A stretch of DNA of 36,415 nt from an uncultured Caryophanales bacterium (GTDB taxonomy: Bacteria > Bacillota_I > Bacilli_A > RFN20 > CAG-449). The notes below the pieces were generated by a model. The model was not told the origin of the DNA, ran no database searches, and was given only the letters and a program-made list of their open reading frames with translations. Location of the stretch: NCBI GenBank assembly GCA_945873815.1, contig CAMCEE010000018.1, positions 1 through 36,415 on the forward strand, given 5' to 3'. A program made the translations under genes and the position numbers. Positions 4,748-19,855 of this stretch are shown piece by piece (the stretch's first letter is position 1; every line of letters begins with the position of its first letter).

Positions 4748-7558
4748 CTAGTTCATTTCTTCCCAATTCATCGGATTTATTCTTCCATCTTGGCAGATCA
4801 AAACAAAAGAAGTATCCCAATAATATACATATTCATATGAAGATTTAATGTTTTTATTAATCCAATCTTCCATTGTCCCACAATAATAAACTTTGCTTAG
4901 ATAAATGCAATCTCTAAAAGGGTTTCTCCCCCATTTAATCGATTCTGAAAGGATATTAACAGAATTTAAAGATAAACAATTTTCAAAAGCAAGATCTCCA
5001 ACTTCCTTTATTCCACTTGAAATAACCACTGTTTCCAAATTAGATGAGCCTTTAAAGCATCTATCCCCGAGTTTAGTAAGTGAAGAAGGTAAACTTACTT
5101 CCTTTAGTCCACTATTTCTAAATGCCTCATCCATAATTGAAATTAGCCCTTCTTTAAAATCAAACGATGATAGGTTAGTACAACCATAAAACGCTCTACT
5201 TTCAATTGATTTAATATTACCATTTATAGTAACGCTTTCTAATGACGTACATCCATTAAACACATCTCTTTTTATCATATCAATATCTGAAAAGAAGATA
5301 ATTTTAACTAATTCCACGCAAGACATAAACGCTTCTTCATCAATTTCAGTTAATGATTTAGGAAGAGTTAGTTCCTTATTTCTAGTATTCTTAAAGGCTG
5401 AATAGCCTATTTTTTCTAATCCCTCATTCAATTGTAAAGAAGAAAGGGAACAACCATAAAATGCCTCTCCACAAATTGATTTCACATCACCATTAATTAA
5501 TACTTCATTTAATCTATTACATTGATAAAATGTTTTTGTTTCAATTTCATCAACATTTGAATTAATTATTACTTTAACCAAATCACTATTATTAATAAAT
5601 GAGAATTCTCCTATTTTAATTAACGTAGAAGGGAATTCTATTTCTTCAATCGCAGAGTACGAAAATGCTCCATTTCCTATTTCTTCTAATCCTTCTTTAA
5701 ATGTGAACTTTCTTAGTTTACTACAATATGAAAAAGCTTCAGCTTCAATTCTTCTTACATTACCATTAATTAGAACTTCATCTAATTGATTACATTGATA
5801 AAATGCTTTGTACTCAATATTTTCAATATCTGAATTGATTACAATTCTAGTTAATGACATATTTTGAGCAAAAGAAAATTTTCCTATTCTTTTTAATGAT
5901 GAAGAAAAATTTATTTCCTCAATCGAAGTATTTTCAAAAGCATTATCTCCAATCTCTTCTATTAGAATATTAAACGAAAATTGCTTTAAATTTTCACATC
6001 TTGCAAAGGCATAATAATCTATTAATCTCACTTTTCCATCTATTTCAACGCATGACAAATTTGTACATTCATAGAAACTCTTCATATTAATGGTATCTAT
6101 ATCACCGGATAAAGATAATTTCTCAAGTTTTGAATAACATTCAAATGAATAAGGTTTAATATTATTTATTCCCGAAAGTGAAATCTCATTTATTTCTTCT
6201 CCATCTTTTATTAAACTACTTCTTAAACTAATCGGATTCGATTCTAAATCAAAATCAATGTCAATCCATGATTCTAGACTATTAATGTATATTTTCGATA
6301 TATCACTTTCCTCAAAAGCCTTTAATTCAATTGTTTTTAATGTGGAAGGAACATGTAATTCTTCTATATTACTATTTCTAAAAGCATATGCTCCAATTGA
6401 TGTTATCCCTTCTTCAAGAACAACCTTTTTAATACCTTTAATACCTTCAAATGCACTTTCTGATACTTCTATATTATCTGATAAAATAATAATAGAAAGT
6501 TCACATTCACTATCAATATTGAAGAATGATCCACATTTCTTATAATTAGAATATATCGATACATCAAGAGTTCTTTTAATATTGTTATTATGTGTAATAC
6601 CATTAAATATCCTTTTTAAAGATGTATTACTAAGAGGCTTCATTTTTATCTCACGAAGATAATTTTGACCGCTTAATAAACCATCTTCAATGACTTCAAC
6701 TGTATCAGGAATATATAACTTTGTTAAATTTACATCCTTAAATAAAGTACTACATAATTTAATCACTGGTTTATTATCTATAGAATCAGGAAGACTAACA
6801 TCGTCTTCTTTTTCAATCATATCAAATAATGCTATCCCTTTTTCTCCTACAGGATAATACTTGTATTTACTTTCTTTTGGAACATAAAATGCTTTTAGAG
6901 TTAAATCATCTTTCCTATCTAAAGTAGATCCAATATCAATCTTTTTTCCATTATATAACCAACAAGAAAACTCATATCCCTCTTTTGTTGGTACAGGAAG
7001 ATAATCAATAGTTTTCGAATATACACATTCAATACTATCTTTTTCCACCTTTCCTCCATTCGCATCAAAAAATATTCTAACTTTATCTAAAAAATGAGAA
7101 GTTAAAACAATATCTTCTTTTACATCAAATGAAGCAACATATCTTCTATTAAGTTCGTCATAATAAGCATCAAAAACGCCATCTTCCGTATCAGGTAGTG
7201 TCTCGAGTTTCACACATGTTCCATAATCGTATAAAGTCGTTTTTCCATCAATTGTAACACTATATTGATTTATTGAATAAACTGCAAATACCCTAGTATG
7301 AGAATAGATTCTAGTTGAATCAAAATCAAAAGGTTTTCCCTTTTCATCAACCCATCCAATAAATGTATATCCTTCTTTTTCCATATTGATTGATGGTTCT
7401 CTAACTGTGTCTCCATCCCTAACGATTACAGGAGAAGTTATCTTCCGTCCATTATAATAAAATGAAACATAATGACCAAGATTATAACAACTAGTTAGAC
7501 CAAAAAAAACTAGAAATGCTAATATAAATCCGCATGCAAATTTCAATAATATCTTCAT
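4748..7558 (-). CDS. Surface lipoprotein with InlB-type repeats and BspA-type leucine-rich repeats
   Basis: 936 aa. A type II signal peptide ends in lipobox LTSC (C24), so the protein should be anchored outside the membrane. Two Listeria/Bacteroides (InlB B-repeat, Flg_new) modules follow, at about 30-95 (ending GYTFIGW..) and 160-225 (DANGGKV...EGYEFSCW). From about 255 to 890 it consists of LRR_5 (BspA-like) units of about 22-23 aa (pattern IxxIxxxAFxxCxxLxxVxIxxxV). Residues 547-880 fall into a higher-order repeat of 90-91 aa (starts at 547, 637, 728, 818). The tail VYYCGTMEDW is typical of BspA-like proteins. GGAGAT lies 5 nt before the ATG. Binding to host or bacterial surfaces is plausible from the family but not shown. 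The APH-like kinase gene follows without a gap. Confidence 0.88.
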   Translation of the reverse strand: MKILLKFACGFILAFLVFFGLTSCYNLGHYVSFYYNGRKITSPVIVRDGDTVREPSINMEKEGYTFIGWVDEKGKPFDFDSTRIYSHTRVFAVYSINQYSVTIDGKTTLYDYGTCVKLETLPDTEDGVFDAYYDELNRRYVASFDVKEDIVLTSHFLDKVRIFFDANGGKVEKDSIECVYSKTIDYLPVPTKEGYEFSCWLYNGKKIDIGSTLDRKDDLTLKAFYVPKESKYKYYPVGEKGIALFDMIEKEDDVSLPDSIDNKPVIKLCSTLFKDVNLTKLYIPDTVEVIEDGLLSGQNYLREIKMKPLSNTSLKRIFNGITHNNNIKRTLDVSIYSNYKKCGSFFNIDSECELSIIILSDNIEVSESAFEGIKGIKKVVLEEGITSIGAYAFRNSNIEELHVPSTLKTIELKAFEESDISKIYINSLESWIDIDFDLESNPISLRSSLIKDGEEINEISLSGINNIKPYSFECYSKLEKLSLSGDIDTINMKSFYECTNLSCVEIDGKVRLIDYYAFARCENLKQFSFNILIEEIGDNAFENTSIEEINFSSSLKRIGKFSFAQNMSLTRIVINSDIENIEYKAFYQCNQLDEVLINGNVRRIEAEAFSYCSKLRKFTFKEGLEEIGNGAFSYSAIEEIEFPSTLIKIGEFSFINNSDLVKVIINSNVDEIETKTFYQCNRLNEVLINGDVKSICGEAFYGCSLSSLQLNEGLEKIGYSAFKNTRNKELTLPKSLTEIDEEAFMSCVELVKIIFFSDIDMIKRDVFNGCTSLESVTINGNIKSIESRAFYGCTNLSSFDFKEGLISIMDEAFRNSGLKEVSLPSSLTKLGDRCFKGSSNLETVVISSGIKEVGDLAFENCLSLNSVNILSESIKWGRNPFRDCIYLSKVYYCGTMEDWINKNIKSSYEYVYYWDTSFVLICQDGRINPMNWEEMN

Positions 7559-10213: not shown

Positions 10214-10549
10214 TTATTTAATAATATCTTCACAATAATCTTTTAATTCTCTAATACTCTCTACTGCAGTATTCCATAATATTTCAAGATTTATCGTATC
10301 ATATCCATGAACAATTCTATTTCTAAGTCCTTTTATTTGTTTCCAAGGAATCTTTTTATATTCATCCAAAAATTCATTTGATAATTTACTGGTTAATTCA
10401 CCTATTTGAAACAAATTAAAAGCAACAATCTCCTGCAAATCATTGTCACCATAAAAATCAGCTTCTTTGATATCTTTTAGTTTATTCATTATTCTGTCAC
10501 AGTGACTTATTATCATTAAGATGATACCATTGTCTTTAAAATTTAGCAT
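10214..10549 (-). CDS. hepT: HepT-like toxin (DUF86 / HEPN family RNase)
   Basis: 111 aa, all helical. RNRIVHGY (R76-Y83) is the R-X4-H-X-Y motif of HepT toxins: R76 and H81 form the HEPN RNase site and Y83 is the tyrosine that MntA AMPylates in characterised type VII systems. The ATG overlaps the mntA stop by 7 bp (ATGCTAA) and GGAGGAT lies 11 nt upstream, so translation is likely coupled to the antitoxin. Family members cleave RNA (tRNA in described cases) as dimers or higher oligomers. Motif and length are intact, so it is probably functional. Confidence 0.88.
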   Translation of the reverse strand: MLNFKDNGIILMIISHCDRIMNKLKDIKEADFYGDNDLQEIVAFNLFQIGELTSKLSNEFLDEYKKIPWKQIKGLRNRIVHGYDTINLEILWNTAVESIRELKDYCEDIIK

Positions 10550-10995
10550 AGTTTAATTAAATCCTCCTCAATTTGTGATCTAAAATATTCATCCATTTTT
10601 GATGAAATAAATACTAAATCAACTTTTTTGCCTAATTCAGCCTCAAGTCTATCTTCAAGGATACCCTGGTCGATTAAAGTTTTAACATTTCCTTTATCAC
10701 ATAAAATATCTACATCAGAATTGGCATTTGCTTCTCCTCTAGCATAAGAGCCAAACAAATATATTTCTTTTATATCAAATTCATTTAGAACTTTCTTAAG
10801 TATTCTTTTAATGTCTTTTAATTTTAAAACATTAGGAAATGCATCTTCTTTTATCAATGAAACTAAATACGAATTTCTCATATTGATATTATCTAAGTAT
10901 TCTATAATCTCATCATCTTTTCTTACTCTAAACTGATACATCTTATAGTTATCTTTATTATATTTTGATATGTATGCATTTTGTTTAAAACTCAT
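10543..10995 (-). CDS. mntA: MntA-like nucleotidyltransferase antitoxin with N-terminal ribbon-helix-helix-like domain
   Basis: Minimal nucleotidyltransferase. Residues from the ATG at 10995: GS-X10-DXD motif (G82, S83, D94, D96) in FGSYARGEANANSDVDIL and a third acidic residue D126 (KKVDLVF). MntA AMPylates and silences HepT in described systems. Unlike plain MntA (about 95-140 aa, starting near the NT fold), this one has about 55 extra N-terminal residues. The pattern there is strand YKMYQFRVRK, helix DDEIIEYLDNI, turn NMRNS, helix YLVSLIKED, which is the layout of Arc/MetJ ribbon-helix-helix proteins. The start at 10995 is chosen because AAGGTGG lies upstream and the upstream ATG at 11019 would lie inside the -10 region. 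Two palindromic operators precede it. Confidence 0.85.
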   Translation of the reverse strand: MSFKQNAYISKYNKDNYKMYQFRVRKDDEIIEYLDNINMRNSYLVSLIKEDAFPNVLKLKDIKRILKKVLNEFDIKEIYLFGSYARGEANANSDVDILCDKGNVKTLIDQGILEDRLEAELGKKVDLVFISSKMDEYFRSQIEEDLIKLC

Positions 10996-11015
10996 ATATA
11001 TGCACCACCTTCCAT

Positions 11016-11068
11016 ACATATGATATCATATGTGCATTCAATTATCAACACATATGATATCATATGTG
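11016..11068 (-). promoter_or_regulatory. Promoter and twin palindromic operators of mntA-hepT-GNAT
   Basis: Two identical 18-bp perfect palindromes, ACATATGATATCATATGT, at 11016-11033 and 11050-11067 (the second extends to 20 bp, 11049-11068); centres 34 bp apart. On the minus strand -35 TTGATA (11043-11048) and -10 TATCAT (11020-11025) are 17 bp apart with a TG extension. The -10 lies inside the first palindrome and the second overlaps the edge of the -35. A protein on either site would block RNA polymerase, and the RHH-like part of MntA is the obvious candidate. Confidence 0.8.
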
Positions 11069-11486: not shown

Positions 11487-11951
11487 TTAGAAAGGTAAAT
11501 CATCATCAGCTACATCAATTGAAGATACATTCTTTTGTTGTGGTTCTTCAATAACAGGGTCTGGTTGATAACTAGGAACAGTATCATTTACAAATGCACT
11601 ATCTCCATTTGTTACACCACTTGTATTCTCATCTTTTCTTTCTAAGAATTGAACTGAATCACAAATAACCTCAATAACTGATACTTTGCGTCCATCTTTA
11701 GAGTCGTAGGTACGTTGATTTAATCTACCTTCAACTCCAACTAAAGAACCCTTGTGAACAAAACGAGAAACATTTTCTGCTGCTTGATTCCAAACTGTAC
11801 ATGGAATGAAGCTTGCTGTTTTATTTCCAGCTGCATCTTTTGTTCTGTTGTCAACTGCTACTGTGAAGGAAGAAACAGCTGCACCACTTGTAGTTCTTCT
11901 TAATTCTGGATCTCTTGTCAAGCGTCCAACTAATACAACACGATTAATCAT
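11487..11951 (-). CDS. ssb: Single-stranded DNA-binding protein
   Basis: 154 aa. OB-fold (residues 1-105) beginning MINRVVLVGRLTRDPELR, a glutamine/proline/acid-rich linker, and the acidic tip DDDLPF that recruits replication and repair proteins. It coats ssDNA at the fork and in repair, as a tetramer in this family. It sits between rpsF and rpsR, the usual Bacilli order, with AGGAGG 8 nt before the ATG. Confidence 0.97.
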   Translation of the reverse strand: MINRVVLVGRLTRDPELRRTTSGAAVSSFTVAVDNRTKDAAGNKTASFIPCTVWNQAAENVSRFVHKGSLVGVEGRLNQRTYDSKDGRKVSVIEVICDSVQFLERKDENTSGVTNGDSAFVNDTVPSYQPDPVIEEPQQKNVSSIDVADDDLPF

Positions 11952-11981: not shown

Positions 11982-12266
11982 TTATTTTACTACGACGATA
12001 TGACGTAATACATTAGTATTGAGTTTTGCTCTTCTACTGAATTCATCTAAGACTGCTGGAGCAGATACTGTTGCTTCAACAACTACGTAATATCCTTTTT
12101 TCTCTTTGTTGATTTCGTAAGCTAAATCTCTTACGCCCCATTCATTAACGTTATCGATTGTTCCACCGTCAACTGTTAATAAATCGTTGAGTTTACCAAT
12201 TAATTCATTACGATTTGCATCGTCTAAATTAGCTTTAAGGATATACATGATTTCATATTTCTTCAT
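11982..12266 (-). CDS. rpsF: 30S ribosomal protein S6
   Basis: 94 aa, usual length: MKKYEIMYILKANLDD at the start, WGVRDLAYEINKEKKGYYVV in the middle, LNTNVLRHIVV at the end. The ATG at 12266 follows GGGAGGTG; the longer open frame reaching 12356 is the non-coding leader and starts upstream of the expected transcript. First gene of rpsF-ssb-rpsR. Confidence 0.96.
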   Translation of the reverse strand: MKKYEIMYILKANLDDANRNELIGKLNDLLTVDGGTIDNVNEWGVRDLAYEINKEKKGYYVVVEATVSAPAVLDEFSRRAKLNTNVLRHIVVVK

Positions 12267-12385
12267 ATATTTACACCTCCCTATGGTCTTCTGGCTGCAT
12301 CTAAAAATGCAACAGAGAAGTTCTTTCCGCCTACCTTCACGAAAGCGGACACTCATACTATATAATAGTATCTTCTAAATGTAAA
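12267..12385 (-). promoter_or_regulatory. rpsF promoter and structured leader, probable S6:S18 autoregulatory RNA
   Basis: Promoter: -35 TTTACA (12380-12385), 17-bp spacer, -10 TATAGT (12357-12362). The about 85-nt leader folds into a GC-closed hairpin (TCCGC 12345-12349 with GCGGA 12326-12330) and a second stem (GTTGCAT 12307-12313 with ATGCAGC 12294-12300) before GGGAGGTG. Bacterial rpsF leaders bind an S6:S18 complex through a CCG-containing loop; a CCG is present, but I have not shown that this fold matches the known motif. Confidence 0.6.
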
Positions 12386-12449: not shown

Positions 12450-14423
12450 CTAACATATTTTTTCTTCTTTGCGATTTTTTTTTATTCTTCTAGCCATATC
12501 GATAATGCTATTTCCATCATAGGAGGAATTATTTGAAACATATCGTTTAAACTTATCTTTTTCATCAGAAGTTGGTAAAACATCATTATCACTCATGTAT
12601 TTATCGAATATTCTTTCGCACATGTCTTTATCGATCTTTTTAAATTCAATAATCGAATCAAGCATAGATAAAAATTCATTACCTAATGTTTCAGAAATAT
12701 TGTTTTCTTCCTTATTATCATTTGTCGAATCTTTAGTAGGTATTGATAAATTGAACCTTTTATTATAATCATTCGTAAAAACAAACAAGAACGTGCAATT
12801 TGATACTGAAATCTTTGAATTGTTATCATCATAGATATATCCATTTTCCAGCATATTTGTAACAAAATGAACCGTCTCTTTATCGGCTGATTCCATATCC
12901 TCGAATACAATTAATGAAGATGGTTTTTCTTTAATTAATCTTAGCATTTCTTCATATTTATCGTTATACAACCCTTTATTCCATACACTTTGTTTTCTGC
13001 AGAAAAGTGCGCTGTTTATTATTATGTTATCCTCTAAATATACTTCATTAATAAGCGTTTTTATTACAGTTTTTTTACCTACCCCTTTTTCTCCCGTCAA
13101 TAATATTTTCTTGTTCATATTCACTAAAGAAAGAATAAGTTTATCCTTCATTTCATCTTGTCCGATTAAACGTTGATTTAGCATAGTTTCAAAACGTTCC
13201 AACTTCTCATTATGATTATAGATATTAAAGATATTCTCTAACGTATAATCTACATCATTACGGCTTAATTTCTCCTTTGCTCCAACGCATGAATTATCGA
13301 GTAATTCAATTGCCTTATCAGGGAATTTTTGATTAATCATATAATCATTTGCTTTATTACATATATAATCAGTGATTTCATCATCAATTCTAAGCGAATA
13401 ATATTCTTCATATATATCTTTGATTCCACGTAGAATGTTTTTTGTGTCCTCCAAGGAATTCTCTAATACATTAATCAATTGAAATCTTCGTTTTAAAGCT
13501 TTATCTTTTTCAAAAGAAGCATTAAATTCATCAAATGTCGTTGCACCTATAATTTGAATATCTGCACGTGCTAAATACGGTTTAAGGATATTTGAAGCAT
13601 CTATCGCACCTTCTGCACCCCCTGCTTTTACAATAGAATGTATTTCATCAATAAAAAGAATAATATTTCCTTCTTCTTTAACTCTTTTAATAATTCTTTT
13701 TAGTTTCTCTTCAAATTCACCGCGATATTTCGTCCCTCCTACAGTTGAAGCTATATCTAATTCATATATAACTTTCCCTGAAAGAATATCTATTTCGTTA
13801 TTCAATAATCTTTTTGCTATTTCTTCCACTATTGCAGTTTTTCCAACTCCAGGTTCTCCTAATAGAATTGCATTTGGCTTATTACGTCTTGCTAAAGCAT
13901 ATATCACTTTATTGATTTCTTTATCTCTTCCTATCAATAAATCTCTATTTTTATCTCCCATAAGATGGAGATCATTAATACCTAAATTATCTCTATTTCT
14001 CTTTTTTGAATCTAGGAGAATATGAGAAAGATAATCAATATCAATCCCATATGATTTTAATAAATCCGAAGCGGCATTTTTCAAATTAATAAGGGTAAAA
14101 ATTAGTGAATTTATACTTGCACTAGATTCTTTGTTTTTAAGTGAAAACCTTTTTGTTTCTTCAATAATATCATTCAATTCTATGGAATATTTAATGTCAA
14201 AAAAAGTATTCTTTTCATACTTATATAGGTTTTTAATCTTGTCACAGATTAAACGATATTTAATTCCTTTTTTATTTATTTCATCGCTTAAATAATTATC
14301 TCCACTCTTTAATAAAGCAAGTAAAATATGCTCGCTTCCTATCACTGGATGAGCCATACTACGAGCTATTTCTTCTCCCATAATTAATACTTGTTGAACT
14401 GCATATGATAAACGTTTATCCAT
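12450..14423 (-). CDS. ClpC-like AAA+ unfoldase with decayed second ATPase domain
   Basis: 657 aa against about 810 for ClpC. The N-domain (1-140, Clp_N-like, ARSMAHPVIGSEHILLALL) is followed by an intact D1: Walker A GEPGVGKT (189-196), pore loop TKYRGEFE (231-238), Walker B LFIDE (256-260), arginine pair RR (312-313). The coiled-coil M-domain is nearly absent. D2 is recognisable (LIGQDEMKDKL at 419) but degenerate: Walker A GEKGVGKKT (lysine where Ser/Thr is expected), Walker B FED instead of DE, a GLYNDKY remnant of the pore loop, and SMLD where other family members have the NRID arginine finger. D2 probably hydrolyses ATP poorly or not at all. It follows the MATE gene by about 70 bp; TAGGAG precedes the ATG. 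Confidence 0.85.
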   Translation of the reverse strand: MDKRLSYAVQQVLIMGEEIARSMAHPVIGSEHILLALLKSGDNYLSDEINKKGIKYRLICDKIKNLYKYEKNTFFDIKYSIELNDIIEETKRFSLKNKESSASINSLIFTLINLKNAASDLLKSYGIDIDYLSHILLDSKKRNRDNLGINDLHLMGDKNRDLLIGRDKEINKVIYALARRNKPNAILLGEPGVGKTAIVEEIAKRLLNNEIDILSGKVIYELDIASTVGGTKYRGEFEEKLKRIIKRVKEEGNIILFIDEIHSIVKAGGAEGAIDASNILKPYLARADIQIIGATTFDEFNASFEKDKALKRRFQLINVLENSLEDTKNILRGIKDIYEEYYSLRIDDEITDYICNKANDYMINQKFPDKAIELLDNSCVGAKEKLSRNDVDYTLENIFNIYNHNEKLERFETMLNQRLIGQDEMKDKLILSLVNMNKKILLTGEKGVGKKTVIKTLINEVYLEDNIIINSALFCRKQSVWNKGLYNDKYEEMLRLIKEKPSSLIVFEDMESADKETVHFVTNMLENGYIYDDNNSKISVSNCTFLFVFTNDYNKRFNLSIPTKDSTNDNKEENNISETLGNEFLSMLDSIIEFKKIDKDMCERIFDKYMSDNDVLPTSDEKDKFKRYVSNNSSYDGNSIIDMARRIKKNRKEEKIC

Positions 14424-16255: not shown

Positions 16256-19200
16256 TTATATCTCAATGATTTTTTTCATATATTCTTTATATCTTTGATT
16301 TAAATCTAAACCAATATACATTATAGAGAATAATGTGAATCCTATTCCAAAGCCAAGTATTCCTGTTTTAAGACCAGGAGTAACATATTCTAATGAATAA
16401 GAAAAGTCTCCCTTTTCCGCGACGAAAGAATTAAATCCACCTTGTGCTTTATATAGTTTGATTTGTGTTTTATTCCCTTTATCATCAAAACGATACAAAC
16501 TCCATCCTTCATCATAAGGAATCGTTAATACTTCCATTTTTGTATCAGTGTAATTAGTATCAAAAGTGAAACTATTTGTACGGATTTTTAAATTCTCTAT
16601 TTTATTTTGATTTAATTTATCAATATTAGCTTTGTAATCATCGTAATATGTAACAGTAATATTTGGTTTTGCAAATTTTTGATTTTCTTTAAATGTATCA
16701 TATGCTCTTACTCTTATTCGAGTCACTTGATCATTGACATAGAACCCTCTTTCAAATTTCCAATCACCACTCTTATCGTAAGCATGCTTCATATGGATAT
16801 CGCGAGCTAGTTCATACTCATTTCCATATTCATCTTCACCATATAATGTGATAAATAAGTTTTCACCCATTCTCGCATTAACAGTAACAAATGCTCCACC
16901 TCTTAATTTTGCTTCACTTGCAACATTATATGATGATAAATCAACATCCATGTATGAATTCCAATATATATTCTTAAAGTTAGAAGGATAATTTTGTGGT
17001 TCAGAGAATGATGTTGCAACTCCATTTTTATGATCCCAGTTTTGTAAATAAACTTGAATATCAGAATTCGAAACATTGATTACATCTATACTATTTCTAA
17101 TATTATTTGTTTTATAAATCGAATAATTTTGATCTAGATAATATTCAAAATTTGCATCTGTATAAGTATCCTTAATTTCTAATATATCTTCTGGATCAAG
17201 TATTGCCGTCCTTACATAAGCGGCTTCATTGAGCATTACTTTTCCATTATATGTAGCATCATAATAAGAATCACTCGCAGTAAGAGGACTATTCGAATGC
17301 AATGTGTCGAATGCAAAACCAAAATTAACGAAATTCTTATTCTCATAAACTACATTATATTCATCTCGAGCAATTTCTTCATACCCAAATGGAACGTTTG
17401 TATCCTCTCCTTTAAATACAACTGGCTTCAATGTTTCACCATTAGTCATTACGATATTATAAATAATATTATTTTTCTCCGATTCCATTTTTTGAATTGA
17501 TTTAATTGTTGAATACGTACTATTAGATAGACTATTAGGGCAGCCTTTTACTCCAATATCTAAATCATTAAAGAACCAGTTACCATTAGCTCCTATTGAA
17601 ACCTTAATCGCTTCTTTACTTGAGATAGTGATATTATATGTTTTCTTTACATCATCAGAATTTGATGTATTTGTAACAAATTCAACTGTGAAAACATCCA
17701 TTTCACCTTTTTGTTCTTTTAAAGAAATTGAGGAGATGACATATTCTCCAGAATTATAATCTACTAACGAACTAGAATATGCGTTAAGTGAAGCAGCATT
17801 TTCATTAACTGACCATTTACCATTAGAAATACTCAATAGCTTACTATTCGAAGTAAGACGAGAATCATTTGCATTTACAATATAATATTTTACACCTAAG
17901 AACGTATCAAGATTTGCCCTTTTCTCATGGACTCCCATCGACCATGGTCTCCACGATTTTGAAGATGTAGTGTAAGTGATTCTTGACCATTCTGCAAATT
18001 CGTCTAATTCATAATTATACATAGAATGGAAAGTACCGAGTCCTCTATATCCTTCAACCATACCTAAGTTATTTGAATCACGATCTGCGCTAGTATTAAA
18101 TATACGGAAATACGAATCATCATTCTTATTTATATCTGCGATTAATTTAGTTGATGAACTAACATCATTTAATCCACCATAAAGCGTATCCATCGATACT
18201 GTTCCTTGACCAATTACGACCATATTCCCAACGAATACGGCTTCAAAAATAAGAAGTGTTTTCAACGTTTCAAAAAAACTCTTCTTCATAAAGTTTTGTC
18301 TAATGATTATATAAACAACAACTAAATATATAGGTTGAATAAGTGCAACATATAATCGTTCATCTACACTAGTGCTTGTAAGAAGGTTCTTACTTCCCAT
18401 TGTTCCTTGAAATTTTAAAGAAAGGATAATCAATACGATTTCTAAAGCTAAACAAGCTACAACCGATATGTCAAAATACCAACCTTTCATCTTCTTAATC
18501 TCATCGATATTAAAGGCAATATAAATACAAGCAATCGCAACAATAAAGAGTTGCCATCTACCATAACATACGGTGGTGAATCCGGTGAAACAATAATAGA
18601 AGAATGGGCTAAAAATCATTACTACTGCACCAACAAAGCCAATAAGATGAGAAACCTTTTTCTCTTTGAAACTCTTAATTAATGAAGGAATTAATAATAA
18701 AGTCAATGGCGTGTACATAAATAGGGAGCAGTTCGTATTATCATATCCGTTATTTGCAAATAAAGGTGAATCGAAGCATCCTACAGGTGGAAAGAAATAT
18801 GAAACTAAAGGATACATCGTATGCTTTTTCGCATCGGATCCACTGAATTTAAAGATTATATCAAAAAATTCTTTTATCGCTTCTCCAAATGTACCTTTCT
18901 CTGTATTTCCTTTAATCGCTTCAAAAACATTTTTTAACGCATTAGTTAAATTAGATAAATATGATCCTGAAGAAGTCTGTGCTCTTGACGATTCCATTGC
19001 GACTTTAAATGCAGGAATAAGAATGACAGCTGCCATAACAATTGCAACCGCGAAAGATAAGACACCTAATGCAATTTTAATTGCACGGTCCTTACCATTA
19101 TTATCTTTCCACATTTGGAAATATCTAAATAATGCATAAATCACTCCACAAAAGCAAAACATAATGAAAAAGAAATAATTCGTGATCGCGGATACGAATA

Positions 19201-19855
19201 AAGACATTACTAGATGTCCTATTTTCTTTTCCTTTAAGACTTTTTCAATACCTAATAATACCCAAGGGAAAAGTACTGCAATTTCCAAGAAGTGATTAAA
19301 CCAAAGATAGTAGAAAGACCATCCAGAAAAAGCGTAAGCAATAGAAACAATTTTCGCAGTTTTAGAAGAAATACCCATATATGATAATAATTTCTTCATA
19401 ACAAAACCTGCTAAAACGAATTTAGTAATAATGATAAAAGCCAATGCTTGAGGAACTAATACTCTTGGAAATAATAGTGTAGGAAGGAAGAAGATATTCC
19501 ATAAATAATAGAACGTGTTTGTACCGATATTATTTTGTCCAAGGAATCCAGAATCATCCCACATGACAAATTGTCCACTCAATAATGATTTCCACCAATC
19601 ATCATATCCGTTATAGTAAAATGGAACTTCTTGAAGTTTAAAATCACCAGAAATAACAATTGCTAAATAATTTGAAAAAAGCGTCATTAAAAAAACTAAT
19701 ATTGCAATTCCATATAGAAGAAGGACGAATTTTCTATCTCCTTTTTTAAAAAAATTATATATATAACATCCAACTTTACTTCTTTTAAATCTATCAATAA
19801 GGTCGTTAACATAATCTTTCGCTCTTTGAGTTCTTTCCTTTATATTTATTTCCAT
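16256..19855 (-). CDS. YfhO-family membrane protein (probable glycosyltransferase of cell-envelope polymers)
   Basis: 1199 aa. The first about 600 residues hold about 12-13 membrane segments of GT-C type with a long extracytoplasmic loop (YYNGYDDWWKSLLSGQFVMWD, 83-103); a large exposed domain (about 600-1160) follows, then a last membrane segment (ILGFGIGFTLFSIMYIGLDL) near the end. This layout and length match the YfhO family (PF09586). In Bacillus and Listeria, YfhO/GtlB-type proteins take part in glycosylating teichoic acids from lipid-linked sugars; the polymer here is unknown. AGGAGG precedes the ATG, 12 bp after rlmH, so it is the last gene of the gdpP-rplI-dnaB-walJ-rlmH operon. Confidence 0.85.
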   Translation of the reverse strand: MEINIKERTQRAKDYVNDLIDRFKRSKVGCYIYNFFKKGDRKFVLLLYGIAILVFLMTLFSNYLAIVISGDFKLQEVPFYYNGYDDWWKSLLSGQFVMWDDSGFLGQNNIGTNTFYYLWNIFFLPTLLFPRVLVPQALAFIIITKFVLAGFVMKKLLSYMGISSKTAKIVSIAYAFSGWSFYYLWFNHFLEIAVLFPWVLLGIEKVLKEKKIGHLVMSLFVSAITNYFFFIMFCFCGVIYALFRYFQMWKDNNGKDRAIKIALGVLSFAVAIVMAAVILIPAFKVAMESSRAQTSSGSYLSNLTNALKNVFEAIKGNTEKGTFGEAIKEFFDIIFKFSGSDAKKHTMYPLVSYFFPPVGCFDSPLFANNGYDNTNCSLFMYTPLTLLLIPSLIKSFKEKKVSHLIGFVGAVVMIFSPFFYYCFTGFTTVCYGRWQLFIVAIACIYIAFNIDEIKKMKGWYFDISVVACLALEIVLIILSLKFQGTMGSKNLLTSTSVDERLYVALIQPIYLVVVYIIIRQNFMKKSFFETLKTLLIFEAVFVGNMVVIGQGTVSMDTLYGGLNDVSSSTKLIADINKNDDSYFRIFNTSADRDSNNLGMVEGYRGLGTFHSMYNYELDEFAEWSRITYTTSSKSWRPWSMGVHEKRANLDTFLGVKYYIVNANDSRLTSNSKLLSISNGKWSVNENAASLNAYSSSLVDYNSGEYVISSISLKEQKGEMDVFTVEFVTNTSNSDDVKKTYNITISSKEAIKVSIGANGNWFFNDLDIGVKGCPNSLSNSTYSTIKSIQKMESEKNNIIYNIVMTNGETLKPVVFKGEDTNVPFGYEEIARDEYNVVYENKNFVNFGFAFDTLHSNSPLTASDSYYDATYNGKVMLNEAAYVRTAILDPEDILEIKDTYTDANFEYYLDQNYSIYKTNNIRNSIDVINVSNSDIQVYLQNWDHKNGVATSFSEPQNYPSNFKNIYWNSYMDVDLSSYNVASEAKLRGGAFVTVNARMGENLFITLYGEDEYGNEYELARDIHMKHAYDKSGDWKFERGFYVNDQVTRIRVRAYDTFKENQKFAKPNITVTYYDDYKANIDKLNQNKIENLKIRTNSFTFDTNYTDTKMEVLTIPYDEGWSLYRFDDKGNKTQIKLYKAQGGFNSFVAEKGDFSYSLEYVTPGLKTGILGFGIGFTLFSIMYIGLDLNQRYKEYMKKIIEI

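Follow-up and report, generated by a model that had tools for sequence, protein, structure and literature searches.

The closest described relatives of the protein considered here are the ClpC unfoldases of Staphylococcus aureus and Bacillus subtilis. It has in common with them an N-terminal Clp_N domain, two AAA+ domains (D1 and D2), the locus, the closest solved structures, and a ClpP encoded in the same genome, but it differs in having no M-domain, no PhiGF motif, lost D2 motifs, and no MecA or McsB found. ClpB is likewise an HSP100 protein with Clp_N, D1, and D2, though our protein is without the long M-domain of that group. In two-ring AAA+ proteins such as Pex1/Pex6, one ring does the work and the second serves as a scaffold; unlike the ClpC examined here, these belong to a different AAA+ clade, form a hetero-hexamer, and have no protease partner. 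ClpI (ClpIb) of Actinomycetota is likewise double-ringed and related to ClpC, and has no LGF docking motif (PMC10149685), but it keeps both ATPase modules and its M-domain; our protein, also without the motif, has a decayed D2, and loss of its gene tracks ClpP. Studies of the importance of the D2 ring point opposite ways for B. subtilis ClpC and for Chlamydia ClpC (PMC10128030). In the open-access literature that we searched, no ClpC with a decayed D2 was found.

A ClpC at the clpC locus

The window analyzed here is a stretch of 36,415 nucleotides from an uncultured Caryophanales bacterium. The unfoldase gene, its features, and its conserved downstream neighbors are as follows:

12450–14423 (minus strand): ClpC-derived unfoldase, 657 aa, with an ATG start and an RBS-like AGGAG upstream
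13989–14423 (minus strand): N-domain (residues 1–145), Clp_N (PF02861, 30.2 bits against a cut-off of 20.7)
13233–13952 (minus strand): D1 AAA+ ring (158–397), every motif intact
13836–13859 (minus strand): D1 Walker A, GEPGVGKT (189–196)
13719–13736 (minus strand): D1 pore loop, GTKYRG (230–235)
13644–13661 (minus strand): D1 Walker B, ILFIDE (255–260)
12453–13214 (minus strand): D2 ring (404–657), catalytic motifs gone, AAA+ fold predicted to be retained
13071–13094 (minus strand): D2 Walker A, GEKGVGKK (444–451)
12966–12995 (minus strand): D2 pore-loop region (477–486), shortened, low pLDDT
12897–12914 (minus strand): D2 Walker B, LIVFED (504–509)
12708–12767 (minus strand): D2 loop (553–572), the PhiGF site in other ClpCs, here FNLSIP without GF
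12663–12665 (minus strand): Met587, in the D2 arginine-finger column
12510–12512 (minus strand): Asn638, in the D2 sensor-2 column of an alignment that includes close relatives
11982–12356 (minus strand): rpsF, from TIGR00166 and synteny
11487–11951 (minus strand): ssb, from synteny

D1 also carries IGATT and LKRRFQ. The M-domain is absent, as the preliminary description of this DNA had noted, with 55 residues between the PDK of D1 and the GQ of D2 against 126 in most reference ClpCs. None of the NCBIfam HSP100 models matched the 657-aa protein over its cut-off, and the best of them was a ClpB model at 317.7 bits against a cut-off of 1232.1. The closest solved structures are ClpCs, S. aureus ClpC scoring 278 bits (249.8 over the N-domain and D1, 23.5 over D2), and an AlphaFold model built on a 29-row alignment (mean pLDDT 79.7) likewise had ClpC chains as its top Foldseek matches. 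Because the same architecture recurs in 14 genomes of family f1, to which the window genome belongs (one orthologue, L013, is cut by a contig end), we rejected a fragment, a frameshift, or an assembly artefact.

The clpC locus of genome G002 and its relatives reads ftsH-dusB-lysS-clpC-rpsF-ssb-rpsR, a neighborhood that we take to be the Firmicutes clpC site. Our gene lies at this locus, with a MATE transporter gene occupying the position of lysS. The Bacillus locus (L118) is ctsR-mcsA-mcsB-clpC-radA, where McsB was named by search and the other genes by inspection. The window genome (1.80 Mb, 96.5% complete) encodes two HSP100s, this ClpC and an ordinary ClpB without PhiGF. The protein had earlier been suggested to be ClpB/ClpC-derived; the locus bears out ClpC, and together with the separate ClpB elsewhere in the genome it leads us to reject a ClpB origin. 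The D1 tree, in which the genome's own ClpB was not separated from the reference ClpCs, leaves that origin undecided. By locus, the 657-aa protein is the clpC of its family, and is neither a fragment nor ClpB.

The window also holds adjoining genes for a HepT-like protein (PF01934) and an MntA-like nucleotidyltransferase in a type VII toxin-antitoxin layout (10214–11019, minus strand). At 4748–7558 (minus strand) lies the gene for a probable surface protein of 936 aa, which has leucine-rich repeats of the BspA type as well as Listeria-Bacteroides repeats, and a 1199-aa YfhO-like membrane protein (PF09586), for which there was no NCBIfam match, is encoded at 16256–19855 (minus strand).

Orthologues, ClpP, and the docking interface

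Motifs were tabulated for 25 orthologues, found among 98 related genomes, and for 23 reference ClpCs. The D1 ring, described earlier as live, has its motifs intact in all 25. The M-domain is missing from every one of these orthologues found in the order, and its loss therefore predates D2 decay. The PhiG[FY] tripeptide is present in all nine outgroup orthologues (families f3, f6, and f8; L023–L031), as is PhiGF in 23/23 reference ClpCs, and is absent from all 16 members of the window's own clade (family f1 plus G090 and G076, the latter genome only 61% complete). This clade has support of 100/99 in the D1 tree, where the split of the 25 orthologues is weakly supported (83/71). D2 is intact in eight of the nine outgroup orthologues. 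The ninth, L031 of G031, is a separate D2 collapse: it is truncated to 593 aa with a broken D2, without P-loop or C-terminal subdomain, in a genome 86% complete where no ClpP was found.

Within the clade, genera g3 and g4 keep the D2 arginine finger and sensor 2, with a Walker B of DE or EE, and D2 hydrolysis is predicted for them. Walker B in the window's genus (seven sequences) instead reads DD, DS, EE, ED, EG, AN, or ED, and three of the seven, the window protein (L001), L008, and L010, have lost the arginine finger and sensor 2 too. D2 decay is thus concentrated in this genus, and is not common to the whole clade, a possibility raised earlier. From these graded motif losses across clade and genus, the aligned sequences indicate that the M-domain was lost first, then PhiGF, then D2 catalysis.

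The window genome has a single ClpP, encoded near whiA, with the catalytic Ser, His, and Asp in place. ClpX scored over its cut-off in 0 of the 98 related genomes (control positive in 10/14). Strong ClpP matches occurred in 27/98 and a clpC orthologue in 25/98; the two were found together in 22 genomes, clpC only in 3, ClpP only in 5, and neither in 68 (Fisher p = 3e-14, counting the 98 genomes as independent and uncorrected for phylogeny). Weak ClpP matches in G011 and G023, from the 29 genomes listed, were left out, and the one in G011 consists of frames unlike the window genome's ClpP. Five genomes of another family have divergent ClpPs without this clpC, which counts against the reading that we favor below.

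Across the 18 genomes of family f1, 13 have both genes, four have neither, and none has clpP alone. The remaining genome, G005, has clpC with no ClpP found, and was set aside as a likely assembly gap because whiA, which lies beside clpP, is also missing from its assembly. At the clpC site, rpsF directly follows lysS in G008 and G011, lysS adjoins rpsF in G014 with only a small opposite-strand frame between them, and a different gene lies upstream of rpsF in G001. At the clpP site of these four genomes, whiA and pgk are present and no clpP separates them; in the three that belong to genus g2 another gene, gapA by inspection, is found there. The two sites thus show a joint loss of clpC and clpP in two lineages, g2 and G001, of which one is represented by a single genome, 76% complete. 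ClpB is present in 18/18 of the family, and so its presence does not track ClpP. Since relatives keep or lose clpC together with clpP, the window ClpC probably still works with ClpP, as a one-motor protein shredder.

The preliminary description had suggested that the protein perhaps acts without ClpP. A stand-alone unfoldase or disaggregase that has given up ClpP docking, as proposed for ClpIb, would account for the absence of PhiGF throughout a clade whose outgroup and reference ClpCs all have it, a motif likewise absent from Actinomycetota ClpIb in the available portion of PMC10149685, and for G005 having the gene with no ClpP found. We consider this unlikely, as clpC and clpP have twice been lost together, G005 is also without whiA, and the intact ClpP would be left without any other partner found.

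Other ClpP arrangements were seen among the related genomes. Tandem divergent ClpPs lie at L062 (G053), L064 (G085), and G077:C28:31157-32233, in genomes without window-type ClpC and without ClpX; at L062 and L064, one ClpP of the pair, like ClpR, seems to be without the catalytic serine motif. A second, distinct ClpP (L046, L051, L053, L055, and L059) is present in G013, G017, G090, G024, and G029, respectively.

If the window ClpC still docks onto ClpP, both proteins have changed at the likely contact. The window ClpC has S560-I561 where G-F is expected, in a loop that by eye follows F-x3-[L/I/F] in 12/14 members of f1 (exceptions L010 and L021). The E-R of the ClpP N-terminal hairpin is kept in 0/13 ClpPs of f1 and in 8/8 outgroup ClpPs, and Leu115, which we take to be a pocket residue, is Tyr in 13/13 and 0/8, respectively; the ClpP of G090, from the same ClpC clade, is without E-R and keeps Leu115. 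Pocket positions 29, 49, 63, 83, and 91 are named in excerpts of PMC9823225 or PMC10128030. The pocket floor (I29, L/I49, Y63, I91) is unchanged in f1, which speaks against complete remodelling of the pocket; residue 83, aromatic or His in 1/13 ClpPs of f1 against 6/8 of the outgroup, is a weak sign of co-evolution. PMC12521514 describes an S. aureus complex whose interface is formed by the ClpC loop and the ClpP hairpin alike. With change on both sides in f1, a remodelled dock is a better fit than a free surface, a fit rather than proof.

MecA was found in 0/41 genomes (control positive in B. subtilis and L. lactis), and McsB in 0/23 relatives using the Bacillus McsB as query, with the query's own genome as sole, positive control; the PF00217 profile was dropped for McsB, as no control genome was positive with it. 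CtsR was found in 0/41 genomes, a weak result since the control missed B. subtilis. The earlier expectation of no MecA/McsB control agrees with these searches. Among the genes whose presence had been queried, then, clpP proved intact, mecA and mcsB were not found, and the second HSP100 was ClpB.

State of the second ring

The structure prediction and ClpC alignment proposed earlier confirm the observation of a D2 that has lost its motifs, within a predicted AAA+ fold. Walker A keeps K450, with K451 replacing Ser/Thr, and Walker B has E508-D509 in place of D-E. M587 occupies the arginine-finger column with no Arg nearby, and the pore loop reads NKGLYND instead of SPPGYVGY. Two residues might be merely shifted, as had been allowed for: the sensor-1 Asn (N551) is one residue off its column, and R645 falls in the conserved Arg column when close relatives are left out of the alignment. 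The finger and the Walker A Ser/Thr are lost. Alignment with relatives, together with a predicted helix start at residue 637, puts N638 in the sensor-2 column, and so we read sensor 2 as lost, with some doubt remaining from R645. By sequence, D1 is thus the one intact module, D2 having lost Walker A, Walker B, finger, and sensor 2.

Predicted alone, D2 gave a pTM of 0.77, with low confidence at the pore-loop and docking-loop segments. It resembled the D2s of ClpA (Z 19.9 over 237 residues), ClpC (18.8 over 235), and ClpB (18.6 over 234), in models whose alignment of mainly ordinary ClpCs biases them toward a ClpC-like fold. The ratio of D2 to D1 divergence rises from 1.2 for ordinary ClpCs and 1.16 for the outgroup to 1.4 (g3), 2.1 (g4), and 2.4 (the window's genus). 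Between the window protein and L008, identity is 69% in D1 and 25% in D2, and dN/dS is 0.22 and 0.63, respectively, with dS near saturation. In four less decayed f1 pairs, dN/dS was 0.15–0.26 for D2 and 0.05–0.12 for D1, and in the closest such pair, L014/L015, 0.04 and 0.07; the pair L009/L013 yielded no finite dS. Faster divergence and higher dN/dS indicate that constraint on D2 is weaker than on D1, yet its frame is open and its fold predicted. An open D2 frame of 250 codons has P = 8e-12 from base composition alone, and with the graded decay of the same motifs across relatives this makes the state of D2 more than chance.

It is improbable that D2 remains an ATPase through swapped or shifted residues (E508/D509, N551, R645). 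The invariance of K450 and the glycine frame in 14 aligned clade members would suit such a ring, as would the alternative placement of R645, but there is no Arg near residue 587, Lys replaces the Walker A Ser/Thr, and the sisters L008 (E-G) and L010 (A-N) have lost different Walker B residues, which fits decay and not a new active site. A gene on its way out, its D2 decaying neutrally before loss of clpC as in genus g2, would match the faster D2 and the clpC losses nearby in the family, but is hardly to be expected with 657 codons open, D1 strongly conserved, an intact fold predicted for D2, and dN/dS of 0.04–0.26 for D2 in five less decayed pairs.

Proposed working and significance

We favor, as rather likely, a D1-powered ClpCP with a passive D2 ring and remodelled docking onto ClpP. 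D1, judging from its motifs, would bind and hydrolyze ATP and pull substrate with its KYR pore loop. D2 would serve as a passive lower ring, keeping the hexamer together and passing substrate to ClpP; with K450 kept it may still bind nucleotide, and hydrolysis would be poor or nil. ClpP would remain the partner, what speaks for the partnership being co-presence and co-loss of the genes, and docking without PhiGF would probably fall to the shorter loop with its Phe and Leu/Ile and to the altered ClpP hairpin and rim. As the M-domain and MecA/McsB are absent, this ClpC presumably escapes the resting state that the M-domain imposes on ordinary ClpC. More tentative is the fuller version in which D1 alone is the motor, D2 a dead coupling ring, and a new loop/pocket dock co-evolved after PhiGF loss.

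Published work bears on this in both directions. Inactivating the D2 Walker B of Chlamydia ClpC cost it ~30% of its ATPase and left chaperone activity in place (PMC10128030), which makes a D1-powered ClpC plausible. The greater share of the ATPase of B. subtilis ClpC comes from D2 (85%, according to a citation in PMC10128030), and a change of the AGF motif in S. aureus ClpC abolishes ClpP binding (excerpts of PMC12521514), a motif for which the window ClpC has no counterpart; both results count against our favored reading.

Why HSP100 unfoldases carry two motor rings has been studied mostly by point changes in few species. At one locus, this family spans a natural gradation from two working rings to a single one, in members that have PhiGF and in members that do not. 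If ClpP is still driven, neither D2 hydrolysis nor PhiGF would be indispensable for a ClpCP protease.
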